Source: Hydnum rufescens UP504 (lineage: Eukaryota > Basidiomycota > Agaricomycetes > Cantharellales > Hydnaceae). Taken from it: a stretch of 64,000 nucleotides of DNA. The position numbers were made by a program, and so were the translations under genes. The DNA is taken from assembly GCA_014904985.1 (NCBI GenBank), contig MU129009.1, positions 151,197 through 215,196 of the forward strand. Reading direction: 5' to 3'. Below, in pieces: positions 7,793 through 62,130 of this stretch (positions within the stretch are counted from its first letter, which is position 1; each line of letters begins with the position of its first letter). The notes beneath the pieces are model-generated. The model was not told the origin of the DNA and made no database searches. It saw nothing but the letters and a program-made list of their open reading frames with translations.

Positions 7793-10700
7793 ATGTGGAA
7801 ATCTATTCGCCGACTTTTTAAAGCCAATAGCGATAAGCGCTTCAGGGTCCTCATACTTGGACCGGCGAACGCAGGAAAGACCACTCTGCTCGAGCGACTA
7901 ACGGACAGCCCTGCCGGGGCGGCCATAGTGACTCGCAACGGAAAACGTGTAATTACTGTAGCTGGTCGAACTCAGTAGAGATGCTAGTCTAATTTATCCC
8001 TTTATCCCAGGTCAAGGGGGTCCCCAGAGGATACGATCAAGTAAGAGCCGTCCTAACAAAGGTGCATGGTGGTTGCTCGATGCTTTCACACCATCTAGCG
8101 GGGGATCCATAATATTGACGACGAAATCACTTACGCATCAAACCCGGCATTCGTTTTCCACGACTCTGGTGGTTTCGAGGCGGGAGGGGTCGAGGAGCTC
8201 GAGGCTGTCTGGAAATTTATTCGAAAGCGCTCGTTGGCTTCGCCTTTGAAGCAGCTGCATGCGATTTGGTGCGTTCACCCATGCAGTTCACACCTCTTCA
8301 TATGTCGACTCATCAATTGTTGCAGGCTCTGTATTCCGACAGATAATGACAGGCCCTTGGGATTCTTGCAATCAGGCTTTTTCTCCGAATCCACAGCATC
8401 AGGTATGTCCCATCAGTCGCAGCATTCGACACTATCTGTTACGCACTGGTCCATATATCTGTTCAGTGCCTGTTATTGGAATTTTCACCATGTTGGATGG
8501 AAGAAGGACGAAAGTGGAGATTCAGGTTTTAGGCCCTGCTCCCCACCCATCCGATTTCCTCGATCGTGCCCAGGAGGTGGATCAGAAAGTAGCTGAATTT
8601 GTCAATGGACTCGAGACACAATTTCACAAAGAGCGGTACCCACCTGCTGGTTTCATCAGGGTTGGAAGTATGTATACTCTATCCAAGCAGCAATTTTGGG
8701 ACTTAAATCTATGGCCTAAAGACATGGATGAAGTTAGCATGCGGAGCATAGCATTGTGTGACCAACTTCTTCTAGTCACTATGGATGCTCTTCCCCATGA
8801 GACCCAGAGATCATTACTTAGGCTCACAGTTTGGAAAAGAAACCGCCGAATTCATACCATCTTTGTTTTAAAGCGGTGAGTTTGGATGTCCAACAGATTG
8901 ATGGTGCTCATTATTGTGTTTATCTCATAGTGTCCTTCATGCTGGAACTCAAGGTCCTGTCTCAAGCTGTATTGATGAGATGATGGTACAATTTGACTAT
9001 GTTCAGGGAGCATTGTGGCTAGAGCCCAACAACCTGTGCAAGATGAAGAATCAGAGTTACATGCAGACAAGGGTTTCAGGATTCTTATGGTGAGTGAATA
9101 TATCCCTTGCACAACATTTAAGGTACTATTGTATCATGGGGGGTATAACTGTGGCAACTGGCTCTGACAATATGACACATAATTTACTCATTGGATGGTG
9201 TTGACAACATAGGAGGTATGGTTGCAGGTGCTCACATTTAGTGCACAATCATTGGCTTACATGTCTCTTTGTGACACTGCCAATGTAGTTGGTCAGTCTG
9301 GATCTTGAATACATGGTCACTGACTGATATTGTTTTTGCTGCTATTGGGAACACAGTATGTGAGTCCAGATCTCCCCCAATCCCATGCATAGTCATTCCG
9401 TGATACAGCTCCTGGTGGAATCCACAACACAGGGGGTGAGTTTATGTCTCTTAGTTGATATGAGGTGGCTGTATATCTTTTGGGGGCATGGATAACATAG
9501 CATGTGAGTGATCTCCCACCTTTAGATCCACACTGTCACCTGCTGATATATCCCTTGGTGACATCAACCATGTAGGAGGTAAGACTGCACCTGTCACAGT
9601 TTGATGTGGTCCCTAGCTGATAGAACATTTGGTGGCATGAACATAGGATGTGGGTTGGATTTCCCCACCATTCAATGTGTTATGGCTGACTCATACATCT
9701 TTTCCATGGCATCAACAACATAGCTTGTATGTCCAGATGTCTTGGAATTTGATGGGTGGTACTGATAAATATTTTATTAACATTCACACTGTAGTATGTA
9801 AGTGTGGATTCAACATGAGATCCATGGTTGATACATCATTATGTGCAATGGATAAAATAGGAGGTCAGTCCATATCTCCCAGCTTTCATTGGTGATTGTT
9901 GGCCAATGCATCATTTGGTGATATGGATAATGTAGTATGTAAGTAGGAATTTCCTACAAGTTAGTACATGGTCACTGGTTCATCCATCATCCAATGGCAT
10001 GGACAATGTAGAAAGTATGTGTGGATCTCTTACAATTGAATGTGCTTGCAGGCTGATATCTCTTTCTCTGTGATGGACAATGTAGGGAGTAAGTTCAGAT
10101 CTCTCACAATCTCTCTCACAATCTGATGCATGGTCCCTCATTCATACATCCTTTGGTGTTGACACCACAGCCAGTAAGTTTGGATATTTCTCAATCTGTT
10201 GAGTGTGGTCACTGGCTAATATGTTGTTGGATAACACTGATAATATAGGATGTAAGTCTGGATCTCCTCCCCTTGATGCACTATCACTGGCTGACATAAA
10301 TAATTAAGAATGTGGGCTGCCTTTCAATTTTGTGCTTGATCATTGGCTAATCCATCTTCTGGTGGCACTGACAACATACATAGAATGTAAATCTGAATTT
10401 CTGACTATTCAATCTATTGTTGTTGGCTAATGCATCTTTTGGTGATATTGACAATGGAGGCTGTATGTCAGGTTCTCTTCCAATGAAATATACAGGTGCA
10501 GACTGATATTTCTTGGTCTGACATGGACAATGCAGGAAGTAGGGCTGAATCTTGCAATTTAATGCATGGTCACTGTCTGATATTGTTTATTCCCATTGAC
10601 AATGTAGCATGTAAGTTCAGATCTCTGCTAATTGAACATGGGATTACTGGCCAATATACTCTTTGGTGACCTTGATAATGTAGCGTGTATGCTCTGCTGC

Positions 10701-13700
10701 TGCTTTGAGGCACAATCACCGGCTAATGAATTCTGGATGAACTTGACAATATAGCAGGTGAGCCTGGCTCATTTCTGACTCAGTGTGTGGTGACTTGCTG
10801 ATCTCACCAATGGCATCAACAATGTAGCTGGTGGGCCCAGGAGTTCTCACAATTTGATGCAGGATTGCTGGCTGATTCATCATCTGGTTACATTGACAAT
10901 GTAGGAAGTGAGTAATCCCCCACCACTTGATATATAGGGGTTGGCTGATACATTGCCTGGTGGTATCACAAATGTAGGCTGTATGTTGAGGTCTCTTGCA
11001 ATTGAATGTGAGGGCATTGACTGAATACACTGTTTGGTGGCATGGACAATGTAAGATGGTGAGATTGCATCTACCACCATTCATTGAGTGGCCCTCAGTT
11101 GTTATACTTGTGTGGCCTTAACATCATAGTATGTAAGTCCACATCTCATTCTGATTCATGCATGGTTCTGCCTGATTCAGTGTTTGGTGGTTTCTGCAAA
11201 CAAGGGGGTAGGTCTGGATACTTGAATTTAATATGTCACTGCTAGCTGATGTATCATTTCATGGTTTTGATAACATAGATGGTAAGATGGGATCCCTGAG
11301 AATTTGATGCAAGGTGCTGATTGGTTGGTCAACCTGAACACTGTAGGATGTAAGTGCATGTGACCCACCTGGTTATGAGTTGATACATCTTTGGGTGGGA
11401 TTGAAAATGTAGGAAGTAAGTGTGTGAATGACTGAGAATTTGACACATCATCCCTTGCTGATGCATCATTTGTTGGCATTGACCACATAGCATGTAAGTG
11501 TGGATGTCATAGAATTCAATGGATTGTCCCTTGCTGATTCATCATTTGGTGCCATTGACCACATAGGAAGTAAGTGTGGATGTCATAGAATCAATGGATT
11601 GTCCCTTGCTGATTCATCATTTGGTGCCATTGACCTCATAGCTTGTAAGTGTGGTGGTCATAGAATTCAATGGATTGACCCATGCTGATTCATCATTGGG
11701 TGCCATTGACCACATAGCTTGTAAGTGTGGATGTCATAGAATTCAATGGATTGTCCCTTAACTGTCATCATTTGGTGCCATTGACCACATAGGCTATAAG
11801 TGTAGATGTCATAGAAATCAATGGATTGTCCCTTGCTGATTCATCATTTGGTGCCATTGACCACATAGGATGTAAGTGTGGATGTCATAGAATTCAATGG
11901 ATTGTCCCTTGCTGATTCATCATTTGGTGCCATTGACCACATAGGTGTAAGTGTAGATGTCATAGAATTCAATGGATTGTCCCTGCTGATTTATCATTTG
12001 GTGCCATTGACCACATAGGATGTAAGTGTGGATGTCATAGAATTCAATGGATTGTCCCTTGCTGATTCATCATTTGGTGCCATTGACCACATAGGATGTA
12101 AGTGTGGATGTCATAGAATTCAATGGATTGTCCCTTGCTGATTTATCATTTGGTGCCATGGACCACATAGGATGTAAGTGTAGATGTCATGTCATGGAAT
12201 TCAATGGATTGTCCTTGCTGATTTATCATTTGGTGCCATGGACCACATAGGATGTAAGTGTGGATGTCATAGAATTCAATGGATTGTCCCTTGCTGATTT
12301 ATCATTTGGTGCCATGGACCACATAGGATGTAAGTGTGGATGTCATAGAATTCAATGGATTGTCCCTTGCTGATTCATCATTTGGTGCCATTGACCACAT
12401 AGCCTGTAAGTGTGGATGTCATAGAATTCAATGGATTGTCCCTTGCTGATTCATCATTTGGTGCCATTGACCACATAGCTTGTAAGTGTGGATGTTATGG
12501 AATTTAATGGATTGTCCTTTGCTGATTCATCATTTGGTGCCATTGACCACATAGCATGTAAGTGTGGATGTCATAGAATTCAATGAATTTTCCCTTCTTG
12601 ATTCATCATTTGGTGCCATTGACCTCATAGCTTGTAAGTGTGGATATCATAGAATTCAATGGATTGTCCCTTGTTGATTCATCATTTGGTGCCATTGACC
12701 ACATAGAATGTAAGTGTGGATGTCATTGAATTCAATGGCTTGTCCCTTGCTGATTCATCAGTTGGTGTCATTAACATCATAGCTTGTAAGTGTAGAATTC
12801 AATGGATTGTCTCTTGCTGATTCATCATTTGGTGCCATTGACCACATAGCCTGTAAGTGTAGATGTCATATAATTCAATGGATTGTCCCTTACTGATTCA
12901 TCATTTGGTGCCATTGATCACATAGCTTGTAAGTGTGGATGTCATAGAATTCAATGGATTGTCTCTGGCTGATTTATCATTTGGTGGCATTGACCACATA
13001 GCATGTAAGTGTGGATGTCATAGAATTCAATGGATTGTCCCTTGCTGATTCATCATTTGGTGCCATTGACCTCATAGGAAGTAAGTGTGGATGTCATAGA
13101 ATTCAATGGATTGTCCCTTGCTGATTCATCATTTGATGCCATTGACCTCATAGCTTGCAAGTGTGGATCTCATAGAATTCAATGGATTGTCCCTTGCTGA
13201 TTCATTATTTGGCGCCATTGACCACATAGCGTGTCAGTGTGGATGTCATAGAATTCAATGGATTGTCCTTTGCTGATTCATCATTTGGTGCCATTGACCA
13301 CATAGGCTGTAAGTGTGGATGTCATGGGAATCAATGGATTGTCCCTTGCTGATTCATCATTTGGGGTCATTGACCACATAGGCTGTAAGTGTGGATGTCA
13401 TAGAAATCAATGGATTATCCCTTGCTGATTTATCATTTGGTGCCATTGACCTCATAGCTTGTGAGTGTGGATGTCATAGAATTCAATGGATTGTCCCTTG
13501 CTGATTCATCATTTGGTGCCATTGACCACATAGGGTGTAAGTGTGGATGTCATGGAATTCAATGGATTGTCCCTTGCTGATTCATCATTTGGTGCCATTG
13601 ACCACATAGGCTGTAAGTGTGGATGTCATAGAAATCAATGGATTGTCCCTTGCTGATTTATCATTTGGTGCCATTGACCATGTAGTATGTAAGTGTGGAT

Positions 13701-15666
13701 GGCATAGAATTCAATGGATTGTCCCTTGCTGATTGATAATTTGGTGCCATTGACTTCATAGCTTGTAAGTGTGGATGTCATAGATTTCAATGGATGGTCC
13801 CTTGCTGATTCATCATTTGGTGCCATTCACCACACAGCATGTAAGTGTGGATGTCATGGAATTCAATGGATTGTCCCTTGCTGATTCATCATTGGGTGCC
13901 ATTGGCCACATAGGGTGTAAGTGTGGATGTCATAGAATTCAATGGATTGTCCCTTGCTGATTCATCATTTGGTGCCATTGACCACAGCTTGTAAGTGTGG
14001 ATGTCATAGAATTCAATGGATTGTCTCTTGCTGATTCATCATTTGGTGCCATTGACCACATAGGGTGTAAGTGTGGATGTCATTTAATTCAGTGGATTGT
14101 CCCTTGCTGATTCATCATTTGGTGCTATTGACCTCATAGCTTGTAAGTGTGGATGTCATAGAATTCAATGGATTGTCTCTTGCTGATTCATCATTTGGTG
14201 CCATGGACCTCATAGCTTGTATGTGTGGATGTAATAGAATTCAATGGATTGTCCCTTGCTGATTCATCATTTGGTGCCATTGACCACATAGCGTGTAAGT
14301 GTGGATGTTGTAGAATTCAATGGATTGTCCCTTGCTGATTCATCACTGGGTGCCATTGACCACATAGGGTGTAAGTGTGGATGTCATAGAATTCAATGGA
14401 TTGTCCCTTGCTGATTCATCATTGGGTGTTCTTGACCACATAGGATGTAAGTGTGGATGTCATTGAATTCAATGGATTGTCCCTTGCTGATTCATCATTT
14501 GGTGGCATTGACCACATAGGATGTAAGTGTGGATGTCATAGAATTCAATGGATTGTCCCTTGGTGATTCATCATTTGGTGCTATTGACCACATAGCATGT
14601 AAGTGTGGATGTCATAGAATTTAATGGATTGTTCCTTGCTGATTCATCTGTTGGTGATATTGACAACATAGGTTGTAAGTCCAGATCTCTTAGGATTTGA
14701 TGCATCTTCTTCACTCATTCATCTTTTCATTCCTTTGACAATGTAGCAAGTGAGTCTGAATGTCTTGGAATTCAATACATCATCCCTTTCTGATTTCCTT
14801 TTTTAATGATAATGCAGCCTGTAAGTCCAGATGTCTCAGAATTCTATGCACCCTTACTTGATCATGTCTCACTTGATGGTTTTGTCCCATAGGAGGTCAG
14901 TCCACACCTCCCACTCTTGTATTTGTGATCTCTGGACAACCTCTTAGTTCACTACATCCCCAACATAGGATGTATGTCCCATCTCCTACTATTCTGTGTA
15001 TGGTCCTGGCTCATAGATCTCACTGACATTTACAATGTTAGCTTGTGAGTTCATAAATTTATACAAGGGAATAATATCCTATTTTTCTGGCTGCACTACT
15101 TTTACTTGGATTTATTACAGGATAATGTAAGTTACATCTAATGTGCCAAAGCCAAATGATTCTGTGTAATTATGGTCTCATCATTGCTCCCCTGTTATCT
15201 GGTAAATATTGTCAAGCCTCACCTCCACCCTTGACCTTATCTCTCCCAAATTTTATTAGGTGCTCAAATATTCAGGCAGTCAAGGCCTGTGTGCCCTTCC
15301 TCAAACTTTTGGTCAGTTTAGGTTTTCATTGATTTCCCCCCTCCAGTATGTCTAAACAACCATTCCAGCATCACCTGCCTCACCCACATCTTCAATATCT
15401 GGTGTTTATTTGTTGTCAGGGTTGTGACTAATTCTAACTGTGGATGGGATTGCTGATCTTGGTTTGTCAACCCAGTGGTCATCCTTTGGATTCGGAGGGG
15501 GAGGAATGCTGATTCACCTGATGCACCTGAAATGGAACACACCACTAACTTGGTCCAGGCTCAAATCAGGAGTGACTTGGTGGATTATGGAGATTTTCAA
15601 GCACTAGACTCATATGCTACTGCAGACAGACTGGCAAGGATCATTGATGAGTACACACCAATGTGA
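7793..15666 (+). CDS. G-domain GTPase with a long run of one-codon exons (left copy, about 89 exons)
   Basis: This is a GTP-binding protein of the fungal G-domain (MMR_HSR1-like) family; its cellular role is unknown. Ordinary exons are 7793-7948, 8011-8040, 8099-8268, 8326-8402, 8467-8875, 8931-8953 and 9007-9089. They encode G1 GPANAGKT (residues 23-30), RGIHNIDDEITY, G3 FHDSGGFEAGG, LHAIWLCIPTDNDRP and FTMLDG at G4, where the usual Lys of TKxD is Met. All seven lengths except one (77 versus 76 nt) match the paralogue or differ by multiples of three. From 9090 to 15120 the reading frame continues only through about 79 exons of 3 nt. Then come a 6-nt exon (15121-15126) and exons 15260-15311 and 15476-15666. 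The spliced frame is open to TGA at 15664, about 477 residues. Phase 0 at both edges of the array is supported by the paralogue. The exons are inferred, not seen in RNA. Confidence 0.72.
9090..15120 (+). repeat. Left array of one-codon exons (about 79 units, period about 76 bp)
   Basis: Each unit reads GTAAGT-like donor, about 35 nt, CTGAT-like branch site, about 30 nt, acceptor ATAG, then 3 nt before the next donor. Starts of the 3-nt exons: 9213, 9289, 9357, 9433, 9501, 9576, 9647, 9724, 9795, 9861, 9936, 10012, 10086, 10171, 10249, 10309, 10384, 10460, 10536, 10608, 10684, 10755, 10828, 10905, 10978, 11056, 11130, 11205, 11279, 11347, 11413, 11491, 11567, 11642, 11718, 11793, 11869, 11945 (2 nt), 12019, 12095, 12171, 12251, 12327, 12403, 12479, 12555, 12631, 12707, 12783, 12850, 12926, 13002, 13078, 13154, 13230, 13306, 13382, 13458, 13534, 13610, 13686, 13762, 13838, 13914, 13988, 14064, 14140, 14216, 14292, 14368, 14444, 14520, 14596, 14672, 14747, 14818, 14893, 14969, 15042. 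None is a stop codon. Weak donors: AT after 11795 and GC after 13156. Confidence 0.85.
11494..14671 (+). repeat. Homogenised core of the left array
   Basis: About 41 units here share nearly the same 73-nt intron (GTAAGTGTGGATGTCATAG ... CCATTGACCACATAG). The 3-nt exons differ: CTT 12, GAT 8, GCT 4, GGT 4, CAT 4, CCT 2, CGT 2, GAA 2, AAT 1, TAT 1, and one 2-nt unit. CTT often follows the variant acceptor CTCATAG, a trace of unit lineage. Recent tandem expansion or gene conversion fits the intron identity. It does not by itself explain why the exon triplet is the most variable part. Confidence 0.85.
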
Positions 15667-16282: not shown

Positions 16283-16435
16283 GTTGGGGGTTGGGGACAG
16301 TTGGGGGTTAGGGTTGGAGGTTGGAGGTTGGTGGTTAGGGTTGGGGTTGGAGTTGGGGGTTGGAGTTGGGATTGTCTGGAGTGTGGTTGGGAATGTCTAC
16401 CCCCATGTCCAGTGAGGTTAGGGTTAGGGTTTGAT
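16283..16435 (+). repeat. G-rich telomere-like tract
   Basis: Runs of GGTTGGGG, GGTTAGGG and two exact TTAGGG units (near 16417-16430) form a degenerate fungal telomere-like tract that could fold into G-quadruplexes. It is interstitial and short. Confidence 0.55.
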
Positions 16436-16494
16436 CAACTACATAATAATGTGCTTATGTAGTACACCATAAGTAGTTGCTTAAATAATCAATT

Positions 16495-19895: not shown

Positions 19896-21575
19896 TATAG
19901 AAGAAGGGTTGGGAGCTCTGATGACTGTCAAATCAAAATCTGGTTCAGCCAGTGTGTAGATGGGAGACTGTATTTCTGTTGTTATTCATTGGGTTGGTTC
20001 ACTTCAATGGTTGATCACACTCTGAAAGATGTGTATGGTGTTCAGTGGAGAATAGGAAGGGATATGGACTAGCTGTAGTCAATGATATATTGTTTGGGAT
20101 GCTTATAGAAAGGCTTATACATCTGTGATGCTTGTAGGAAGGCTTATACGTTGTGTGGGATGCTTATGGAAAGGCTTATATGTCTGGGATGCTTGTGGAA
20201 AGGCTTATACATTGTTCATGTTGTGTTGGTTCATTTACTGATATTTGTGTATTCTTGTTTACGTTCTCCTGGTCAAAATGCGGATATCTGTGGGCTACAG
20301 ACTGGTCAGTGCTTGGTTAGTCTTGTTAGTATGTTTCTTCCTTCTTTCTTCAAAACCTGATTTGTATTTCGTTATGCTTACTTTTCCTTGGATGTCCAGC
20401 AACTCTAACCTTAGGTCCTGCAACTATCCTTGGCTTTAGTGATTCGTGTAGAGGGCTACCAGTGGCTTTGTCTCAGCAACCTTGAAGATGACTTAGCTCC
20501 AGATGGCTTATAGATAGACTGTTCTTTAGAGGCAAGCAGAAAAGTTGACAGTGGTTGACAGTGATGATTTCCAGAGAGGAGATGATTGTGTGGGGATACA
20601 GGAAATCTACCAGCTTTTATACCTTTCTGAACGTGGCTGTGTTTAAGAAATATGACTCCCTCATGGGTGAGTCATATGTGAGTCATAGGTGAGAACAAAA
20701 GAAAAATAACAAGATGATGTCATAATGCAGTCATAGCTGAGTCATGCATAAGGAGAACAAAAGGATTCATGAGGAGGTGATGTCATAGTGATGTCATTCA
20801 TAAAGAGAACAAAAGGAATCATGAGGAGGGGTGATGTCACCAATTTGCTGAGCATGTGGAATGCTTGGAGCATGTGGTCACTGACCATGTGGAGCATTCT
20901 GGAGGCAAAATGAAAGGATATCTCCGGGTTTTGGAGATTAATTTGAGCATAGTCCAATGGTCAAGGTGTTTTGTTGCTGGTTGATAATGGGGACAAGTGC
21001 ATGGGATGGGATTTGATGCAGAAACAGCAGTTTGCATCTGTAATAGATGTTCTTGGTATCATTAGATGCGAATTTTTAATAGCTTTCTGGGCACGGTGGT
21101 TCTGAGCAGATCTGGTGTAAACTGACAGAGAAATTCGTTTTTTACTGATGGGTGTTAATTCTGATAGTAATATCATTCTGTAGAGTTCAGTTTTGATCTG
21201 TTCTTCGCACGCTTGGTACCGTTGGATGCAGATTTTTATGTATTTCTAGGTGCGGTTGTTCCAAGGGGATTGGATGTGAACTGATGGAGAAATTCATTTT
21301 TTACTGGAAATTCCGGATTTTGATAGTAAAATTGGTCTGGAGAGTGCAGTTTTGGTCTGTTCAACTTGTGTTGGGTACCATTCGAAAGGTGTGAATCATA
21401 GCTTTCTAAGTGTTATATGGGCATACCTCTCCAATAAAAGCTGACAGAGTTATATAATGAATTTGATTTCCACACATAGCTGTAATTAATTTCGTAATTG
21501 GTCATGTGATCATCCAAAGGCTGGGAGTGGTGTGATTTCGCATTTTCTGATACTGGATGTTTTTATCTTCCACAC
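19896..21575 (-). mobile_element. Solo LTR of the second Gypsy family, inserted in the chromovirus
   Basis: It interrupts the chromovirus between protease and RT. The same sequence occurs at 34160-35349 (plus), about 47300-49013 (minus) and, truncated, 52303-53376 (plus). On the minus strand it begins TGTGGAAGATAAAAACATCC and ends near CTTCTTCTATA. It includes several about 32-40 bp repeats (AAAGGCTTATAC core, 20095-20215). Its position shows that it inserted after the chromovirus. Confidence 0.8.
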
Positions 21576-26417: not shown

Positions 26418-26929
26418 AGCCAACTGTAAATTTTCAGGGTAATGGCATGGATGGAAGGCCCTGGGGAGGAAATTGTGAGTTAGGGGGGGGATGATGTGGA
26501 GCAATGCTTAAATGGAGTCTGGTTAGGCTGATATTTGGGATGTAAGCTCCCATATACATATTGCACTAGTGGCTTAATATCAGATCCATCCCTGCTCTAC
26601 ATCTTGTGTAATTCACTTTTGATTTTCCTCCCCCTCCCCCTCAACTTCAGCCACTTCCACACATCCAATTCATTCCATTTTTGGATATAGTGTGTATCAT
26701 AATATTCCAGGTCAGTTCCACCTATTTTGGGCCTAATGTGGGGTGATTCACATTTATGGTGGAGTTTTTTCTCTTTTCTGCCTGCCAAGGAAGTTGAATA
26801 TCTCAAACTCAACTGATTGAGCTGATTCTTGGTATATATTTACTTCATTATATGACTATACTCTGTGTAGAATTTCAAGTTTACATCTTGACTGTAGGGG
26901 GAGTAAATCAATTTTCAATGTCCATACTT
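26418..26929. other. No gene seen
   Basis: Non-coding, CpG-poor DNA right of the chromovirus. I see no gene or clear repeat. Confidence 0.4.
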
Positions 26930-27765
26930 GTTTGGCTCATATATCCATAAGTAATGCATGGATTGGGCTGAAATTTTGATATGATTTGTGTCCTAATAGT
27001 CTCCTACTATGTGCCAAATTTCAGACTCATCCGCCCAGTGCTTATTTTCTGGCAACTTCCGGTGGTTCCAGTCCCCCTTGCCCAGTTCCCCCTCTTTGAG
27101 TGCATGGATTAAGCTGATTTTTAGCACATAACTACTTCATAATAACGTCATACTCTGTGTAAATTTTCAAGTCCTTAGCTATTTTATAGGGGGAGGAAAT
27201 CAATGTTTAGTGTCCAACCCTGTGTGGCCCATATCTCCATAAGTAATGCATGGATTGGGCTGAAATTTTGATATATTTGCATCCTAATAGTCTTGTACTA
27301 TGTGCCAAATTTCAGACTCTTCCTCCCAGCGCTTAGGTTCCAGAAACTTCCAGTGGTTCCAGTCCCCCTTGCCCAGTTCCCCCTCTTTGAGTGCATGGAT
27401 TGAGCTGATCTTTGGCACATAATTACTTCATAATGACATCATACTCTGCATAAATTTTCAAGTCCTCAGCTATTTTATAGGGGGAGGAAATCAATTTTTA
27501 GTGTCCAACCCTGTTTGGCCCATATCTCCACAGGTAATGCATGGATTGGGCTGAAATTTTGATATGATTTGCATCCCAATAATCTCCTAATATGTGCCAA
27601 ATTTCAGGCTCATCCACCCAGCACTTATTTTCCGGCAACTTCTGGTGGTTCCAGTCCCCTTGCCCAGTTCCCCCTCTTTGAGTGCATGGATTGGGCTAAT
27701 TTTTGGCACATGATTAGTGCATAATGGCATCATACTCTGTGCAAATTTTCAAGTCCCCAGCTACA
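26930..27765 (+). repeat. About 293-bp tandem repeat, three copies
   Basis: TAATGCATGGATTGGGCTG occurs near 26950, 27245 and 27535, each followed by the same landmarks (TGTGCCAAATTTCAG, CCAGTTCCCCCTCTTTGAGT). Copies diverge by scattered substitutions. Function unknown. Confidence 0.75.
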
Positions 27766-28689: not shown

Positions 28690-29470
28690 TTCAGGGTTGT
28701 TCATGGCCCAACTCATGGGTCTGGTGGTCAGACCCATGGGTCTAGAGGTCAAACCCATGGGTTTGGGTCAAACCCATGGGTCTAGAGTCAAACCCATGGG
28801 TCTAGAGGTCAAACCCATGGGTTTGGGGTCAACCCATGGTTTAAGGTCAGACTCATGGGTTTAGAGGTCAAACCCATGGGTCTAGAGGTCAGACCCATGG
28901 GTTAGGGTCAGACCCATGGGTCTAGGGGTCAGACCATGGGTTTAGGGGTCAGACCCATGGGTTTAGAGGTCAGACCCATGGGTTTGGGGGTCAGACCCAT
29001 GGGTCTAGAGGTCAGACCCATGGGTTTGGGGGTCAGACCCATGGGTTTGGGGTCAGACCCATGGGTTTGGGGTCAGACCATGGGTTTGGGGGTCAGACCC
29101 ATGGGTCTAGAGGTCAGACCCATGGGTTGGGGGTCAGACCCATGGGTCTAGAGGTCAGACCCATGGGTTTGGGGGTCAAACCCAGTGGGTCTAGGGGTGA
29201 GACCCATGGGTCTGGGGGCCAAACTCATGAGTTTGATGGTCCACCTCATGGGTCTGAGGATCTAACTCATGGGTATGAGGGTCTGGCTCATGAGTCTGAG
29301 GGTCTAACTCATGAGTCCAGGGCTCAAACCCATGGGTCTGGGGTCAAACTCATGGGTCTGGAGGTCAAACTCATGGCTCTAGGGGTCAAACCCATGGGTC
29401 TAATGCTCTAACTCATGGGTCAGCAGGTCCCACCCATGGGTGGAGTGGCCCAGCCCATGAGTTTTATTGT
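28690..29470 (+). repeat. About 21-bp satellite with an ACCCATGGGT palindrome core
   Basis: Dozens of units of the form GGTCAGACCCATGGGTTTGG or with TCTAGA, period about 20-21 bp. Each has a 10-bp perfect palindrome. Open frames such as 28936-29151 are products of the period, not genes. More degenerate units lie at 29200-29470 and at 17285-17480. Confidence 0.85.
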
Positions 29471-34159: not shown

Positions 34160-35349
34160 ACTGATAAAAACATCCAGTATCAGAAAATGCGAAATCACAC
34201 CACTTCCAGCCATTGGAGGATCACATGACCAATTACGAAATTAATTACGCTATGCGCGGAAATCGAATTCATTCTATAACTCTGTCAGTTTTGATCGGAG
34301 AGGTACGCCCATATAACGCTTAGAAAGCTATGATTCACATCTTTCGAACGGTACCAAACACAGGTCGAATGGACCAAACTGCACTCTCCAGGGCTAATTT
34401 TACTACCAAAATCCGGAATTTCTACTAAAAAAACGAATTTCTCCGTCAGTTCGCATTCAATCCTTTCGGAACAACCGCGCCTAAGAAAGATATAAAAAAT
34501 CCACATCCGACGGTACCGAGCACGCGAAGAACAGATCAAAACTGAACTCTACAGAGCGATATTACTATCAGAATCAACACCCATCAGTAAAAAATGAATT
34601 TCTTTGTCAGTTTAACACCGGATCTTCTCGGAACCACTGCGCCCAGAAAGCTGTGAAAAATCCGCATCTAATGATACACGAACGTCTATTACAGATGCAA
34701 ACTGCTGTTTCTGCATCGATCTCATCCCATGCACTTGTCCCATTATCAACCAACAACAAAACACAACTTAACCACTGGCTATGCTCAAATTAATCTCCAA
34801 AACCCGGAGATATCCTTTCATTTCGCCTCCCAGAATGCTCCACATGGTCAGTGACCACATGCTCCAAGCATTCCACATGCTCAGCAAATTGGTGACATCA
34901 CCCCCTTATGATTCCTTTTGTTCTCTTTATGAATGCATCACTATGACATCACTCCTCATGATTTCTTTTTGTTCTCTTTATGAATGACTCAGCTATGACC
35001 GCATTATTACATCATCTTGTTATTTTTCTTTTGTTCTCACATATGACTCACCCATGGGGGAGTCATATTTCTTAAACACAGCCACCTTCAGAAAGGTATA
35101 AAAGCTGGTAGATTTCCTGTACCCCACACACAATCATCTCCTCTCTGGAAATCATTACCTGTCAACCACTGTCAACTTTTCTGCTTGCCTCTAAAGAACA
35201 GTCTATCTATAAGCATCTTGGAGCTAAGTCATCTTCAAGGTTGTTTGAGACAAAGCCACTGGTAGCCTCTACACGAATCACTAAAGCCAAGGATAGTTGC
35301 AGGACCTAAGGTTAGAGTTGCTGGACATCCAAGGAAAAGTAAGCATAAC
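34160..35349 (+). mobile_element. LTR of Gypsy family 2 (plus), cut by the scaffold gap
   Basis: Same family as 19896-21575. Starts near TGATAAAAACATCCAG and contains the TATAAAAG box at 35097-35104. It is interrupted by Ns at 35350. It would be the 5' LTR of the plus-strand pol fragment that follows. Confidence 0.75.
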
Positions 35350-50644: not shown

Positions 50645-50765
50645 AGAATGAACACCCACCCAACAAACACCCACCCAACAAACACCCACCCAACAAACAC
50701 CCACCCAACAAACACCCACCCAACAAACACCCACCCAACAAACACCCACCCAACAAACACCCACC
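50645..50765 (+). repeat. 15-bp minisatellite ACACCCACCCAACAA, about 8 copies
   Basis: Perfect or nearly perfect units inside an exon-like part of the second array. It looks like a homogenised version of the decayed words in the other exon-like parts. Confidence 0.9.
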
Positions 50766-52302: not shown

Positions 52303-53376
52303 TCAACCAACAACAAAACACCTTAACCATTGGACTATGCTCAAACTAATCTCCAAAACCCAGAGATATCCTTTCATTTCACCTCCAGAATGCTCCACAT
52401 GGTCAGTGACCACATGCTCCAAGCATTCCACATGCTCAGCAAATTGGTGACATCACCCCCCCTCATGATTCCTTTTGTTCTCTTTATGAATGACATCACT
52501 ATGACATCACCTCCTCATGATTCCTTTTGTTCTCCTTATGCATGACTCAGCTATGACTGCATTATGACATCATCTTGTTATTTTTCTTTTTTTCTCACCT
52601 ATGACTCACATATGACTCACCCATGAGGGAGTCATATTTCTTAAACACAGCCACCTTCAGAAAGGTATAAAAGCTGGTAGATTTCCTGTATCCCCCCATG
52701 ATCTCCTCTCTGGAAATCATCACTGTCAACCACTGTCAACTTTTCTGCTTGCCTCTAAAGAACAGTCTATCTATAAGCCATCTGGAGCTAAGTCATCTTC
52801 AAGGTTGTTGAGACAAAGCCACTGGTAGCCCTCTACATGAATCACTAAAGCCAAGGATAGTTGCAGGACCTAAGGTTAGAGTTGCTGGACATCCAAGGAA
52901 AAGTAAGCATAATGAAATACGAATCAGGTTTTGAAGAAAGAAGGAAGAAAGACACTAACAAAACTAACCAAGCACTGACCAGTCTGTAGCCCACAGATAT
53001 CCGCATTTTGACCAGGAGAATATAAACAAGAATACACAAATATCAGTAAACAGACCAACATGTAAGCCTTTCCACAAGCATCCCAGATGTATAAGCCTTT
53101 CCATAAGCATCCCAGATGATGTATAAGCCTTTCCACAAGCATCCCAGATGTATAAGCCTTTCTACAAGCATCCCAAATGATATATCATTGACTACAGCTA
53201 GTCCATATCCCTTCCTATTCTCCACTGAACACCATACACGTCTTGCAGAGTGTGATCAACCATTGAAGCAAACCAACCCAATGAATAACAACAGAAATAC
53301 AGTCTCCCATCTGCACACTGGCTGAACCAGATTTTGATTTGACAGTCATCAGAGCTCCCAACCCTTCTTCTATAAC
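52303..53376 (+). mobile_element. Gypsy family 2 LTR, truncated (plus)
   Basis: Begins at TTATCAACCAACAAC, inside the LTR, directly after the TIR end, and continues to CTTCTTCTATA. It may be the 3' LTR of the plus-sense copy whose integrase lies at 35375-36692. Confidence 0.7.
52540..52675 (+). promoter_or_regulatory. Gypsy family 2 LTR promoter: bZIP-type sites and TATA box
   Basis: TGACTCA occurs at 52543, 52602 and 52613, with TGACATCA-type words nearby (52502 and 52565), upstream of TATAAAAG at 52666-52673. The same order exists in the other LTR copies (TATAAAAG 35097; inverted near 20610). TGACTCA is the Gcn4/AP-1 type bZIP site. Use by the element is inferred. Confidence 0.55.
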
Positions 53377-54705: not shown

Positions 54706-54926
54706 TTGTAACCTAACTTCAGCAACCATATTCATGTCAATCTTCACTATTTCAACTTGGAGATATTACATGTAATATTGTTGCAGCCTATCACCTATGC
54801 CTCCAGCTTGTGGTCTTCACTTGTGGGAATGATGCTTATCAATTTCCCTAAAGCCTGTTGGAGATAACAATTAAGCAGGATGTCATTGGAATACATCACT
54901 TTCAATACATGTATTGCACATGATGC

Positions 54927-57900
54927 CTACAATGCTGTATATTGATCAATGATCCTTGCAATATTGTATGAACCATATTCTTGGAAATCCCCATCATCCT
55001 TGATCTGGGCTTGGATAGAGCTAGCAGTATGCTGTGTTTCATGGGCATTAGGTGAATGTGTATTCCTCCCATCCCAGATCCAAAGGATGACCACTAGTTT
55101 AACAAGCCAAGATAAGTAATCTCCTGTGCACCTGGAATCAGTCTCAACACTCACAACAAACAAACACCAGATATTGAACATCAGGCTTGGATAGGATAGG
55201 TAGGTGATGCTGTAATGAATGCTTAGACTTCCAGGAGGCAGAACATTAATAAAAACTGAAACTTACCAACAGTTTGAGGAAGGGCACACAAGCCTTGATC
55301 CCCTTCATATTGGAGCACCTAGGAACACCAAAGTGAGATCAGGATATGGTTTGAAGGGCAGATTGACAACATTTACCAAATAGAATCAAGGCACAGGTGA
55401 GCAGTGAATGAGATTGCAATTGTACAGAACCATTTGGCTTTGGCACATTAGATGTGACTTACATTAGCCTACAGAAAATTCAATTACAATGTGCAATTGG
55501 AAATAGAATATGATTCCATTATATAGGTCTAGGAACTCACAAGCTACATTGTAAAGAGCAAAATGGGTATGAGCCAGTGACCAGATAGTGAATAGTAAGA
55601 GATGTGGACTAACATCCTATAGAGTAGATGACACCAAGGAAGGGATCAGCCAGAGATGGTGAATAAAAGGGTGGGGTATGGACCTCCTACAAGGACAAGA
55701 ACACCAACTGCAACATTAGCAAGCAATGATATATTAAGTTCTAAGACATCTGGACCTACAGACTGCATCACCAATGGCACCAGAAGAGGTGTAAGCAAGG
55801 GATGATGCATTGAATTCTGAGGCATCTGGACTTACATCCTACATGGTCAATGCAATCAAAAAATGGATGAGTGTGGATGATGCATTAAATTGTAAGAGAT
55901 CTACTTACAACCTACATTGTTGATGCCACCAAAGGATGAGTCAGCAAGGGACAGTGCACTGAAGTCTAAGACATCTGGACTTACATCCTATGTTGTCAAT
56001 TCCACCAAAGGATGAATCAGTAAGTGACAATACATTGAATTCTGAGACATCCCAACTTACATCCTATGTTGTCAAGGCCACCAAAAGATGAATCAGCAAG
56101 GGACAATACATTGAATTCTAAGACATTCTCACTTACATGCTATATTGTCAATGCCACCAAAAATTAAATCAGCAAGGGACAATGCATTCAATTCTAAGAC
56201 ATCCAGACTCACATACTATGTTGTCAATGCCACCAAAAGATGAATGAGTAAGAGACAATGCATTCAATTCTAAGACATCCTGACTTACAACCTATGTTGT
56301 CAATGCCACCAAAAGATGAATCAGCATGGGACAATTCATTGAACTCTAAGACATCTAGACTCACATACTATGTTGTCAATGCCACCAAAAGATGAACCAG
56401 CAAGGGAAAATGCATTGAATTCAAAGACATCCTGACTTACATGCTATGTTATCAATGCCACCAAAAGATGAATCAGTAAGGCACAATGCATTGAATTCAA
56501 AGACATTCTCACTGACATGCTATATTGTCAACACCCCAAAGATAATCAGCAAGGGGCCAATGCATTGGATTCTATGACATCCTGACTCACAATCTATGGT
56601 TGTCAATCTCCACCAAAAGATGAATCAGCAAGGAACAATGCATTGAATTCTAAGACATCCTGACTCACAAACTATGTTGTCAGTGCCACCAAAGATGAAT
56701 CAGCAAGAGACAATGCATTCAATTCAAAGACATCCTGACTTACACCCTATGTTGGTCAATTCCACCAAAAGATGAATCAGCAAGGGACAATGCATTGAAT
56801 TCTATGACATCCAGGCTTACACCCTATTTTCATTCCCACCAGAAGATGAATCGCAAGGGACATGCATTGAATTCTTGAACTTCAGCTCACATTATGTTGT
56901 CAATGCCACCAAAAGATGAATCAGCAAGGACAATGCATTGAATTCAAAGACATCCTGACTTACAGCTATGTTTCATCCACAAAGATGAACAGAAGGACAA
57001 TGCTTGAATCAGACATCTGACTCAACTATGTCAACCACCAAAAGATAAATCAGCAAGGGCAATGCATTGGATTCTATGACATCCTGACTCACAATCTATG
57101 TTGTCAATTCCACCAAAAGATGAATCAGCAAGGACAATGCATTGAATTCTAAGACATCCTGACTCACAAACTATGTTGTCAAGTGCCACCAAAAGATGAA
57201 TCAGCAAGAGAGACAAATGCATTCAGATTCATAAGACATCTCTGACTTCACACCACTATGTTGTCAATTCCACCAAACAGATGAATCAGCAAGGGACAAT
57301 GCATTGAATTCTAAGACATCCTGACTTACTCCTTTCCAGGCTACACCCTATGTTGTCAATTCCACCAAAAGATGAATCAGCAAGGGACAATGCATTGAAT
57401 TCTTTATTGACATTCAGACTCACATACTATGTTGTCAATGCCACCAAAAGATGAATCAGCAAGGGACAATGCATTGAATTCTAAGACATCCTGACTTACA
57501 CCCTATGTTGTCAATTCCACCAAAAGATGAATCAGCAAGGGACAATGCATTGAATTCTATGACATCTGGACTCACACCCTATGTTTTCAATGCCACCAAA
57601 GGATCAATCAGCAAGGGACAATGCATTGAATTCTATGACATCCTGACTTACAAGCTATGTTGTCAATGCCACCAAAAGATGAATCAGCAAGGGACAATCC
57701 ATTGAATTCTATGACATCCAGACTTACAAACTATGTTGTCAATGCCACCAAAAGATGAATCAGCAAGGGACAATGCATTGAATTCTATGACATCCAGACA
57801 TACAGTCTATGTTGTCAATGCCACCAACAGATGAATCAGTAAGGGACAATACATTTTATTCTATGACCCCCTGACTCACATACTATGTTGTCAATGCCAC

Positions 57901-60900
57901 CAACAGATGAATCAGAAAGGGACAATGCATTGAATTCTAAGACATCCTGACTTACTCCCTATGTTGTCAATGCCACCAAAAGATGAATCAGCAAGGGACA
58001 ATGCATTGAATTCTAAGACACCCTGACTTACATACTATGTTTTCAGTGCCACCAAAAGATGAATCAGCAAGGGATAGTGTGTCAAATTCTCAGACATCCT
58101 GACTTACAGGCTATGTTGTCAATGCCACCAAAAGATGAATCAGCAATGGACAATGCATCAAATTCTAAGACATCCAGACTTACACCCTATGTTGTCAATG
58201 CCACCAAAAGATGAATCAGCCAGGGATAGTGTGTCAAATTCTAAGACAACCAGACTTACTTCCTACATTGTGAATGCCACCCACAGATGCATTAACCGTT
58301 AACCATTCTCCAGAGGGTGGGTGATATGGACTTACATCCTAGTGTTCAGGTGAACCAATCTATCAGCCAGGCACCTGACATTCAATCCTAAGTAATCTCA
58401 TCTTACTGTCTATGTTATCAACACCAGTAAAAGAAAACTCAGCCAGAAGTGTTCTATGGAATTCAAACATCAAAACCTACACTCTTGGTTCCAGATCCCA
58501 CCCAAATATGAATCAGGCAGGGACCATCCATGAGTCCATATGATATCTGGACTTACATACTATGGTAACAATGCCACATGATGATACATCAACCAAGGAC
58601 CACCCAATCAATGGTGGGAGATGCAAACTCACCACCTTACATTCCCATACCACCAAACAATGTATCAGTCAGTGAGCTCACCTCCAATTTCCAGAGATCT
58701 CAACATACATCCTACATTTTTGATACCACCAGGCAATGTGTCAGCTAACACCCATGTATCAAATTGCAGTGGATGCAACTCACTTCCTACATTGTCAATC
58801 CCAGAAAATGATGAATCAGCCAGCAATCCTGCAATCAATTGTGAGAGGTCATGGGCCCACCAGCTACATGGTTGATACCATTCATGGGGTCAGCCTGCCC
58901 ACACACTGAATCCAAAGCAAGCACAGCTTACTTCCTAGGTTGTCAATGTCATCCAGATATGTATTAGCCAGTGATTATGTATCAAGGTGGCAGAGATTAG
59001 ATCTTACTTCCTACATTATCAATGCCACCACAGACTATATTAACCAGTGGCCCCACATTGAATCAGAGGAGACTTACATGCTACATTGTCACAGAACCAA
59101 ACAATGTATCAGAGAGTGACCATGCATTAAATTGTGAAAGATCCAGCCTTACCTCCTACATTTTACATAAGAAATATCAGTCACACCTGTCCATTGGATC
59201 AGAAGTGAAGCAGACTTACAGTCTGCATTGTCAATGCCACCCAAAGATACATTAGCCATCAACCATAGATTGAATACTAAGAAATTGACCCTTACATTCT
59301 ATATTGTCAGTCCCACCAATGGATGTATCAGCCCCACATTCACCCATGGATGGTGGGAGACATGCACTTACTTCCTATTTTATCAATCCCACCCAATGAT
59401 GCATTAGCTGGTACTCACACATCAAACTGGGAGGTATCCAGACTCACATCCTACATTGTAAATACCATGCATTGATGTATCAGCCTGTGACCCACATGAA
59501 ATTGTGAGAGAAGCAGCTCACCAGCTATGTCACAGTGAATGCCACCAGGAGATGGATCAACCAGCAATCACATACAAAATCAAAAGGGCACCCACATTCT
59601 TGATCACCAATGTCATCCAGTGATGTGTCAGCCAGTGATGGTGCATCAATGTGGAGGAGAGCCAGACTTACACCCTATGTTATCAGTTTACCACACAATG
59701 TATTAACCAGTGGCCATACATCAAATTGGAAACTATGCAAACTTACAGCCTGCAGCATTAATGGGACCAAATAATGTGTCAAATATCACCAAAGGACCAC
59801 ACATCATATTGTGAGAGAACTGGACTGACTGCCTACATCATCCATGACAGAGAAAGAAATATCAGCCCACACACACATCAAATTGCAAGAGAGCCAGACT
59901 GACTTCCTACATTGTCCATCATCCAATGATGGATCAGCTAGTGACTCTGTGCTACCTTATAATAATTCCCCACTTACATACTGCATTGTCCATGTCACCA
60001 AATGATACATCAACCAGCAACCACCCATTAATACTGGGAAATATAAACATACCTCCTATTTTATTCCCACCCAATCATATCAGCCAAAGGATCTCATATT
60101 GAGTCCACACTCACATACTATATTGTGAATGTCAACAAAATATTTGTCAATTGGGAACATGCATCATTTAGTTCCAAGACATCTGACATACATACTATGG
60201 TGTTAATGCCACCAAAAGAGGAGTTGGTTATCATACACCAAACTGTGGTGGAAGCCAACCCACATTCTATGTGTTCATGCCACCACAAGTTCTCTCAACT
60301 AGTGACCACATATCAAAATCTGAGAGGTGCAGTCTTACCTCCTACATTGTCAACATCACCAAGAGATATATCAGCTGGCAACAGTGCAGATCCAAATGTG
60401 GGAGATGCATACTCACATGCTATGTGTTCCATGCCACCAAAAGTTGTACAAACAGCAATCTCACATCAAATTCTGAGAGATGCAAACTCACCCCCTGCAT
60501 TGCAGATTCCACCAGAAGTTGAGGGAACAGCCATGCATTGAATGGTGGGATATCCAGACTCACATACTGTGTTCCCAATGGCATCAAGAAATGTATCAGC
60601 CAGCTACCATGTATCAAATTGTCAGAGATCCAGACTGACCAACTATTGTCAACACCGCAAAGAGAGATATAAGTCAGTGATCATGCAACAAATGTAAATG
60701 CCTGTGGCCATACCTCCTGCATTGTCAATGCCATCCAATGCACCAATGTCACCACCAGTTATTGCAGTTAAAGTATATGACACAATCAGTACACCACTCA
60801 CATGTGACACAGTCACTCACCAGGAGAATCCTGAACCTGTTATCTGCACATAACTGGGATTCTTCATCTTCCCCAGGTCCTGGGGTTCTGGCCATGATGT

Positions 60901-62130
60901 TCCCTAAATATAGTCAATTTATATCATTGCCTTATCAATAGAACTTCAGAGTGTACCTTCAGCTCTGCTGTCAAGGACACTATGAGATAAAGATAACTGT
61001 TAGTCACTATCAATCTGTTGGACATCCACACTCACCACTCTAAAACATATATGGTATGAATTCGGCAGTTTCTTTTCTAAACCGTGAGGCTGAGCAACAA
61101 TCTCCGGGCTTCATGGGGAAGTGCATCCATGGTGGTTCGAAGAAGTTGCTCGCATGATGCTATACTCTGCTTAGTATCTTAATGCATGTCTTTAACCCAT
61201 AGATTTGAGTGCCGAAATTGCTATTTGGATAGAGCATACATACTTCCAACCCTGATGAAACCAGCAGGTGGGTACTGCTGCTTCTGAAATTGTGTCTCGA
61301 GTCCATCAATAAATTCAGCTACTTTTCGCTTCACCTCCGGGACACAATCAAGGAAATCGGATGGGCTGTGAGCAGGACCAAGAACCTCACTCATGATTTT
61401 TGTCTCTTTTCCATCCAACTTGGTGAAAATCCCAATAACAGGTACTGAGGGATACATGGGCAAGTGTGTACAGATCGGGTCAAATGCTGGAACTCCTGAG
61501 ACGTACCTGATGCTGTAGGTTTGGAGAAAAAGCCCGACTGTAGGAATCCAAAGGGCCTGTCACTATCTGTTGGATACAGAGCCTGTAATAATTGATGAGT
61601 CAAAGTATGAGGACATGTGAATGTGCCCAGGTGAACGCACCAAACCGCATGCAGTTGCTGTGAAGGCGGAGCTAGCGAGCGCTTTCGAATAAATTCCCAG
61701 ACGGCCTCGACCTCCTTGACCCCTCCGGCTTCGAAACCACCAGAGTCGTGAAAGACGAAATCGAGGTTTGATGCGTAAGTGATTTCATCGTCAATATTGT
61801 GGATCCCACGCTAGATCGTGTGAAAGCATCGAGCAACCGTAGTGTACATTTGATAGGATGGCTCTTACTTGATCGTATCCCCTGGGGACTTCCTTGATCT
61901 GAGAGAAAGGTATCCATTAGACCAGCAGCTCTACTGAGTTGAACATCTGTGGTAACTACACGTTTTCTGTTCCGGGTCACTATAGCCACGCCGGCGGGGC
62001 TGTCCGTTAGTCTTTCGAGGAGAGTGGTCTTTCCTGCGTTCGCCGGTCCAAGTATGAGGACCCTGAAGCGGTTCTTTGCATCGCTGTCTTTGTTGGTGGC
62101 TTTAAAATGCTTGAGAATAGATTTCCACAT
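54927..62130 (-). CDS. G-domain GTPase with a long run of one-codon exons (right copy, probably decaying)
   Basis: Inverted paralogue of the gene at 7793. Exons on the minus strand: 62130-61960, 61898-61869, 61810-61641, 61582-61507, 61444-61036, 60979-60957, 60903-60821, then about 70 one-codon exons, a 6-nt exon 55468-55463, and 55318-55267 and 55093-54927. G1 GPANAGKT, RGIHNIDDEITY, FHDSGGFEAGG and G4 TKLD are intact. Faults: 61582-61507 is 1 nt shorter than its partner, giving a frameshift, and the fifth exon has stops at 61223-61221, 61181-61179 and 61079-61077. The C-terminal exons (VLQYEGDQGLCALPQT, GRNTHSPNAHETQHTA) align with the left gene, with an in-frame 24-nt difference. It is either a pseudogene or spliced differently in the fifth exon. 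Confidence 0.6.
55463..60820 (-). repeat. Right array of one-codon exons (about 70 units)
   Basis: On the minus strand each unit is GTAAGT, branch CTGAT, acceptor ACATAG, 3 nt. Lower coordinates of the first 35 exons: 60714, 60640, 60564, 60492, 60417, 60339, 60264, 60192, 60115, 60053, 59978, 59904, 59830, 59747, 59672, 59596, 59522, 59448, 59372, 59296, 59220, 59153, 59078, 59008, 58932, 58861, 58784, 58709, 58633, 58557, 58481, 58407, 58336, 58260, 58184. The last three single codons (55684 GAG, 55614 GAT, 55541 CTT) match the end of the left array. The core (about 55800-58250) is homogenised with its own consensus (GTCAGGATGTCTTAGAATTC), different from that of the left array. Confidence 0.8.
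56490..57350 (-). repeat. Indel-rich block in the right array
   Basis: Units here have many 1-3 nt losses and gains (for example around 56860-56900 and 56960-57040) and a 15-nt insertion near 57330. Splice signals are broken in several units. This may be local decay or uncorrected sequencing error. Confidence 0.7.

Follow-up and report, generated by a model that had tools for sequence, protein, structure and literature searches.

The window analysed here, 64,000 nucleotides (nt) of Hydnum rufescens UP504 (GenBank assembly GCA_014904985.1, contig MU129009.1, positions 151,197 to 215,196 of the forward strand), carries a gene, W1, from a GTPase family whose examined members encode a stretch of 15-107 residues almost entirely in unbroken series of 3-nt exons. 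These exons are very likely joined singly, and the array that they form is likely a diversifier proof against frame loss. The initial annotation had placed about 79 such single-codon exons at 9090..15126, each of exactly 3 nt and separated by introns of about 70 nt with a CTRAY-like branch site. It was right on the array and overlooked the gene family, the division of the array into a conserved start and end with a hypervariable centre, and the degraded state of the paralogue in the same window, W2. Twenty-three genes were studied in all, comprising 21 fetched loci (prefix L) together with W1 and W2.

A dynamic-programming parser that scores donor, acceptor and branch site and weights exon lengths of 1-12 nt equally found 79 micro-exons and 80 introns in W1 between the exon end at 9089 and a 6-nt exon at 15121-15126, so that the annotated extent and count were recovered with no length preferred. 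The micro-exons span 9213-15044 on the plus strand, and 76 of the 79 are 3 nt long, with one more if a GC donor is accepted (codon-exon CTT followed by GCAAGT, 13154..13156, plus strand). The uniform length therefore stands for 77 of the 79 units and fails for two on the same strand: at 11793..11801, GCT is followed by ATAAGT with AT at the donor position, and at 11945..11946 lies a 2-nt exon, either a real variant or an assembly error, that would put the array out of frame if it were not skipped. Sequence shuffled by a first-order Markov model (20 replicates, of which 19 yielded a chain) showed no preferred exon length, each length accounting for 7-9%, and the top parse score of these replicates was 182, compared with 565 for the real sequence. 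As the parser requires AG and GT or GC at the intron ends, the invariance of these bases is no evidence in the diversity and invariance analyses below; the existence of the chain is the point.

Among 1156 introns from 16 genes, the median length is 73 nt and a CTRAY motif lies 10-50 nt upstream of the acceptor in 864, compared with 12.7% of shuffled segments, which bears out the annotated intron size and branch site. Acceptors are TAG in 944 cases, CAG in 155, AAG in 46 and GAG in 11, and the commonest donors are GTAAGT (646) and GTGAGT (135). Canonical acceptors and donors stand on both sides of the 3-nt exons, as in spliceosomal micro-exons. The flanking exons set phase 0, as had been claimed: W1 enters the array in this phase from exon 9007-9089, which ends in ...GFRILM, and leaves it in the same phase, the 6-nt exon and a following 36-nt exon staying in frame to the stop codon at 15664-15666.

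The strongest evidence comes independently, from proteins in the public database. Joint Genome Institute (JGI) proteins on contigs of 0.9-1.6 kb, which we infer to be of RNA origin, were compared with the predicted junctions. P0121 (contig of 1073 nt) contains DGLLLHGRALFPRQQQEVKPEDL, which is exactly the last 23 codon-exons of L051, followed by DH and all of the downstream exons; it begins within the preceding intron (VALTTQ, compared with VTLTTQ in L051). P0123 (936 nt) runs from the GTPase exons through 30 codon-exons of L054 to VSPDPY, exactly what intron 31 of L054 encodes up to its stop, and includes an extra TPQ corresponding to an acceptor 9 nt upstream in L054 intron 13. In these two, the cDNA-like (complementary DNA-like) proteins whose gene is available for comparison, no codon-exon is skipped over 22 within-array joins in P0121 and 30 in P0123. 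Single-codon exons in phase 0 are thus supported by genomic sequence and, for these paralogues, by their presence in what appears to be spliced RNA. P0124 (1448 nt) carries 42 codons across an entire centre that is spelled by no fetched gene, its assignment being by homology, and its leading MTHHWMISTIK is the end of L052 intron 16. P0130 (931 nt) and P0131 (1186 nt) have 28 codons in common, followed by SRYHID. At about 76 nt per unit, the genomic arrays are too long for the contigs of all five of these proteins.

Other proteins enter the array and end early. P0137 reads 8 codons and then VGLDVLGFDA, which is intron 9 of L052, L055 and L056 translated without a mismatch, and P0136 reads 9 codons, as in L053, and then VSVDSI, which is intron 10 in W2, L050, L054, L055 and L058. 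P0138 ends after 4 codons, P0135 after 11 and P0021 before the first, with ends that resemble retained introns. A direct splice from one side of the array to the other, named in the initial annotation as an outcome that would overturn it, is seen in none of the eight JGI proteins that cross the array start (P0021, P0123, P0130, P0131 and P0135-P0138); in six of them the C-terminal residues read as array intron sequence that was retained. Such proteins look like partly spliced forms, and we infer that these are common. P0122, P0125, P0133 and P0134 hold C-terminal exons only and are uninformative on the array; P0122 reads through an intron. Two further public models whose genes were not located, P0008 and P0013, close with DY and then VSVNSI or VSVDSI, which is probably codon-exons 8-9 and then retained intron 10, reached via differing upstream paths; P0013, a gene prediction, reads ...FKILM-DY-VSVDSI and appears to bypass the first units.

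These proteins bear most directly on the possibility that the array is one large non-coding satellite intron, removed in one step or recursively, with the triplets absent from the messenger RNA. The centre is indeed a homogenised tandem repeat, public gene models omit the array, and the W1 reading frame remains open also when the whole array is skipped. Nevertheless, P0121, P0123, P0124, P0130 and P0131 carry the triplets as ordered amino acids, and P0121 and P0123 already contradict the idea for the paralogues. The 3-nt spacing is maintained in otherwise diverged units, no stop occurs among the codons and, as described below, third-position bias tracks the amino acid. A non-coding intron has next to no chance of being the explanation.

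Read codon by codon, the arrays spell a peptide that begins with a conserved stretch (ELYGHEDLYEYK...), passes through a hypervariable centre and closes with the conserved VQPEDL. Close members mostly spell ELYGHEDLYEYKGPDNNAEHxxLExMYRMDE, a gene-specific centre, VQPEDL and then mostly Asp-Asn from the 6-nt exon. The centres vary between genes in length and sequence, and cannot be aligned by eye even between genes with 95-96% identical 5' flanks. In W1 (plus strand), the first 31 single-codon exons and their introns (9213..11415) give the conserved start ELYGHEDLYEYKGPDNNAEHRQLEAMYGMDE, part of the block compared across 21 genes; the hypervariable centre (11416..14671) consists of homogenised units of about 76 nt with one codon each, of which Tandem Repeats Finder counts 42.6 copies at 11451-14680; and the last codon-exons (14672..15044) give VQPEDL. 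Spliced array reads derived from W1 are predicted to spell ELYGHEDLYEYKGPDNN and VQPEDLDNAVKACVPFLKLL.

Several features of the codons point to translation. Gene sets differed between analyses: 13 genes were used for centre diversity, 16 for stops and introns, 20 for the proportions of nonsynonymous (pN) and synonymous (pS) differences, 21 for column invariance in units 1-11 and 9 for codon sharing between units in centres, and the third-position analysis used 13 genes for codons and 9 for intron pairs. There are no stops among 1129 codon-exons compared with 25 expected from base composition, so that the stop-codon argument, initially dismissed as weak, is stronger than was granted; stops are present in irregular stretches of L039 and L043, both outside the 16 genes. 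In units 1-11 of the start block, 21 of 33 triplet columns are invariant, compared with 144 of the 725 columns in introns (binomial test with columns treated as independent, P about 5e-8). The claim made for this block is limited to the invariance of particular codons because pN about equals pS there. Among 43 close pairs, pN is 0.097, pS 0.101 and intron divergence 0.057, and among 66 distant pairs the values are 0.215, 0.162 and 0.235. On average the start-block codons change about as fast as the introns, and the block therefore mixes fixed and fast positions.

Nine of 13 centres are homogenised, with a mean flank diversity of 0.057-0.105 per site (introns 90-94% alike), and in these nine the nucleotide diversity (pi) at codon positions 1, 2 and 3 is 0.53-0.69, 0.54-0.74 and 0.00-0.44, respectively, the first two being close to saturation. 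At the third position T prevails, with 475 of 539 centre codons ending in T and 1 of 539 of the form NNC. Departures depend on their effect: third-position A or G occurs in 48 of 201 CAN, GAN and AAN codons, where it changes the residue, compared with 10 of 273 four-fold codons, where it is silent (odds ratio 8.3, P = 4e-11, codons treated as independent). Codon positions 1 and 2 are not independent of one another (P = 2e-20), and Ser and Cys codons are rare, TCT and TGT each being found once among centre codons against 7.9 and 6.4 expected. From these comparisons, we read the pattern as selection for differing residues on translated codons together with homogenisation of the introns.

It could also be that splicing is real and that the codon variety arises not by selection, but by dedicated mutation or codon replacement at the first two exon bases, a reading that we consider unlikely while giving it some weight. 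The diversity at positions 1-2 has single-base edges, and codons are nearly uncorrelated with intron relatedness, even with an identical upstream intron: the codon is shared by 17% of 64 unit pairs with identical upstream introns and by 10% of 697 unit pairs with more than 10 upstream-intron differences. Uncorrelated codons of this kind favour a targeted process because point mutation and selection would not easily produce them unaided. Against this, the dependence of third-position departures on residue change and the rarity of Ser and Cys codons indicate selection on the protein.

The same design extends over a family in the UP504 assembly. A 138-residue GTPase probe gave 63 matches, hand-grouped into about 50 loci; as the probe contains 18 residues translated from the intron before exon 6, its identities and stop counts include intron sequence. 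A 63-residue C-terminal probe gave 52 matches, and matches to the two probes are 1.8-13 kb apart where paired by position. Over the 23 genes, 1552 of 1669 micro-exons (93%) are 3 nt long, 7 of them with GC donors. The fraction is 1203 of 1210 in the 17 genes that remain after L039, L043, L052, L053, L055 and W2 were set aside post hoc because of clusters of indels, a tail duplication, a damaged frame or a misplaced end anchor; the parse of L055 is meaningless past about unit 14. Ten arrays consist of 3-nt exons throughout, with 107 (L050), 103 (L045), 79 (L056), 65, 64, 58, 58, 47, 41 and 15 units. The last number is that of L059, a distant relative that is 45% identical over the GTPase probe, has 15 of 15 exons of 3 nt and carries the 6-nt exon. 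Rare longer in-frame micro-exons occur within 3-nt arrays, at L041 unit 20 (6 nt) and L051 unit 15 (12 nt).

Genome-wide, the pattern GTAAGT-N50..75-TAG-Nk-GTAAGT has 71, 1209, 22 and 2 matches at k = 2, 3, 4 and 6, compared with 7, 11, 14 and 26 for reversed-pattern controls. Among the 100 of the 1209 k = 3 places that were listed there are five arrays, two on contig C2, two on C4 and one on C6, all coinciding with GTPase- or C-terminal-probe matches. An identical 79-nt stretch, GTAAGT...TAGGTGTAAGT, on contigs C1, C131, C382 and C419 is unlike the array units.

Introns this similar raise the further possibility that an introner-like element placed near-identical introns between the codons of an old coding stretch, the variety of the codons being simply old sequence. 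Within centres the introns are near identical and the codons are not, and introners are known in fungi. Such insertion would nevertheless have to recur in many genes at each boundary between codons, always in phase 0 and as many as 107 times consecutively; the predominance of T-ending centre codons is unlike an ordinary coding stretch; and the start-block units pair one-to-one between genes by their introns, from which it follows that the array architecture is older than the homogenised centres. We regard this origin as improbable. It shares the splicing claim with the preferred explanation, as does targeted mutation, so that the odds given to these readings are not exclusive.

A different concern is that the arrays are tails of decaying pseudogenes and their splicing leftover noise. 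The GTPase part of W2, and that of several relatives, is interrupted by frame breaks or stops, and apparent retained introns close six of the ten cDNA-like proteins. Stops in relatives were first read as pseudogene marks, and some of them sit in the 54-57-nt intron before exon 6. Eleven loci of at least 88% identity, W1 included, are nevertheless open over the GTPase probe region, and L042, L044, L045, L046, L047, L048 and L056 combine open GTPase exons, a complete 3-nt array and an open C-terminus. In addition, the codons are free of stops and some are invariant. Decay of this kind is thus a very improbable account of the family.

Several observations weigh against the preferred explanation, held with high confidence, in which translated single-codon exons are spliced and likely diversified. 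Besides the two departing W1 units (11793 and 11945), 2-nt and 4-nt exons cluster in some arrays; clusters with single-base indels occur in L039, L052 and L053 and on contigs C32, C65, C74, C164, C202, C252 and C373, and represent either assembly error or decayed copies. L043 has a second array tail, DPAEYLVDIQPEHL, with its own 6-nt exon, which is either a partial duplication or a misassembly. Exact protein matches are limited to the paralogues L051 and L054, and W1 would be spliced as they are. Of 10 cDNA-like proteins, six appear to finish inside a retained intron; the final residues of P0021, P0135 and P0138 have no exact counterpart among the fetched introns; and the SRYHID that closes P0130 and P0131 is unexplained. 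Average purifying selection on the 5' block, assessed by pN/pS in 20 genes, was not found, and pN in close pairs exceeds intron divergence there. In four of the 13 centres the introns lack homogenisation, with flank pi at 0.26-0.35, and homogenised centres themselves include single flanking sites as high as 0.56. The third-position T may be partly a splicing constraint, and a recognition role for the variable segment, drawn by analogy, is a guess.

With introns of about 73 nt, good donors and a CTRAY branch site, the introns would be removed individually by intron definition. Neighbouring introns can hardly be processed simultaneously, as three bases do not fit two complexes. Units of identical phase with introns so alike would allow crossing-over or conversion between introns to add, delete or reorder codons. 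Such exchanges would leave the frame intact, each unit being a single phase-0 codon, and the same holds when a unit is gained, lost or skipped. Diversifying selection on the translated codons would keep positions 1 and 2 different while the introns are homogenised, and the variable segment may perhaps form a recognition surface. Taken further, this would resemble antigen-receptor diversity generated by splicing, with one exon per residue, introns as the recombination substrate and change confined to the codons, through selection or a targeted mutator, writing new peptides in a frame that is never broken. We hold this broader possibility at somewhat less than even chances.

The ordinary exons of W1, all on the plus strand and placed by border analysis, comprise eight GTPase exons 5' of the array and, 3' of it, the 6-nt exon and three exons to the stop. 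Exon 1 (7793..7948) holds the start codon, shared with public models P0001-P0003, and the P-loop GPANAGKTT; exon 2 (8011..8040; VKGVPRGYDQ) is present in P0001; exon 3 (8099..8268) holds the G3 motif HDSGGFE; and exon 4 lies at 8326..8402. Exon 5 (8467..8667) covers the G4 region, which reads TMLD in W1, L044, L047 and L048 and TKLD in most fetched paralogues and in P0001-P0003. A 54-nt intron precedes exon 6 (8722..8875). Exon 7 (8931..8953, 23 nt) has an identical junction in P0001-P0003, and exon 8 (9007..9089), the last before the array, is also found in P0001-P0005. The segment 8931-9089 was considered as a single exon, which has an open frame and reaches the array in phase 2; it is assigned as two exons in phase 0 because L059 has an indel there and P0001-P0003 splice inside.

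Beyond the array, the 6-nt exon (15121..15126; GATAAT, Asp-Asn) was found in 22 of the 23 genes and not located in L055. It is followed by the 36-nt exon AVKACVPFLKLL (15276..15311), at which P0126-P0128 start, by a 46-nt exon HHLPHPHLQYLVFIC (15369..15414) that begins a hydrophobic helix, and by the last exon, LVILWIRRGRN...RIIDEYTPM with stop TGA (15476..15666), to which the 52 matches of the C-terminal probe correspond. The initial annotation had proposed a 52-nt exon at 15260-15311, in which the first 16 nt are probably not exonic: it fits W1 and W2 and not L059, and P0121 and P0125-P0128 read the 36-nt form. Joined directly to the last exon, the 52-nt form would also preserve the frame. 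Projection of the W1 borders onto the other 22 genes found AG and GT at nearly all of them, the exceptions being exon 1 of L050, which was partly fetched, and the C-terminal side of L055. Short GGGTTG/TTAGGG-like repeats lie just 3' of W1, at 16283-16440.

The product is predicted to combine a GTPase domain of Ras-like fold with a segment that is variable and probably flexible and that precedes a hydrophobic helix, the helix itself being predicted with moderate confidence. An alignment of 30 hand-picked proteins (A1) keeps G..N.GKTT, HDSxGFE (D and S at at least 90%) and TK, which are the G1, G3 and G4 motifs of a P-loop GTPase of the Era/Ras-like fold, W1 itself having TMLD at G4; the Pfam matches, Arf at 22.0 bits and MMR_HSR1 at 19.4 bits, are below cut-off, and the fold is that expected of such a GTPase, as a prediction. 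The structure model of P0124 has a predicted local distance difference test score (pLDDT) of 49, with moderate confidence only at residues of about 50-90, and no structure is therefore claimed for the variable part.

The paralogue W2 (54926-62130, minus strand) has damaged GTPase exons, with a frame break and in-frame stops (60821..62130; probe match and border analysis), while the remainder retains the design: an array (55541..60716) that parses into 69 micro-exons, of which 65 are 3 nt long, the conserved 6-nt exon (GCTAAT, 55463..55468) and C-terminal exons (54926..55302; border analysis) that are publicly a separate small protein, P0127. Elsewhere in the window are tandem arrays of a 21-bp unit (33.5 copies, 28714-29402), a 291-bp unit (3.3 copies, 26815-27763) and, perfectly repeated, a 15-bp unit (7.7 copies, 50651-50765). 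A 52-bp motif is repeated at 20085-20839, 34893-34999 and 52448-53185, and a 61-bp motif at the first and last of these; the arrays are partly in opposite orientation and are probably copies of one dispersed repeat.

Gene finders miss this design. Public proteins P0001-P0005 stop at the array, four of the five by reading into the first array intron, and the C-terminal exons are carried as separate small hypothetical proteins (P0126-P0129 and P0132). Splicing of dozens to a hundred consecutive 3-nt exons counters the view of such exons as rare exceptions and offers a single gene in which the limits of exon size, intron definition and the order of splicing can be tested. It also suggests a mode of protein evolution in which duplication and recombination act on one codon at a time, with no risk to the reading frame. 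The initial annotation knew of no comparable gene; in agreement, no report of consecutive single-codon exons was found in the open-licence PubMed Central (PMC) literature, which leaves preprints and most subscription journals outside, and no paper there was found to combine Hydnum rufescens and intron. Judged from this limited literature, consecutive single-codon exons appear to be unreported.

Known systems share single aspects of it. The introners or introner-like elements of fungi are reportedly near-identical short spliceosomal introns dispersed over many genes, and the present introns likewise form families of near-identical members; unlike dispersed introners, all five arrays among the k = 3 matches listed lie at probe matches of this one family. 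In recursive, or ratchet, splicing, an acceptor is closely followed by a donor and the ratchet point, a zero-length exon, leaves nothing in the messenger RNA, whereas here three bases per unit stay and are read as residues in P0121 and P0123. The repeat-variable residues of transcription activator-like (TAL) effectors and the repeat proteins of fungal non-self recognition combine homogenised coding repeats with a few hypervariable residues and variable copy number. The arrays resemble both in their homogenised units, hypervariable residues and variable copy number, and differ in that their repeat lies in introns, each unit contributing one codon of coding sequence.

PICALM is said to have one 3-nt exon. 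Micro-Ex8 of Drosophila homothorax is a single 3-nt exon (PMC7392893), and both cases, like the present one, show a 3-nt exon recognised and spliced; they differ in having one such exon each, compared with dozens to a hundred in series here. Also comparable are the micro-exon genes (MEGs) of Schistosoma mansoni, which are reported to have 10-20 short exons, mostly of 15 bp, with introns of 0.1-5 kb and an exon range of 3-81 bp in the abstract and 6-81 bp in the text (PMC10526429). MEGs share with the present family strings of very short, mostly frame-keeping exons that are hard for automatic annotation. The arrays described here fall outside that definition, with a median intron of 73 nt in place of 0.1-5 kb and exons of 3 nt in place of mostly 15 bp, and they differ from MEGs in having up to 107 consecutive one-codon exons and, in many centres, homogenised intron repeats.

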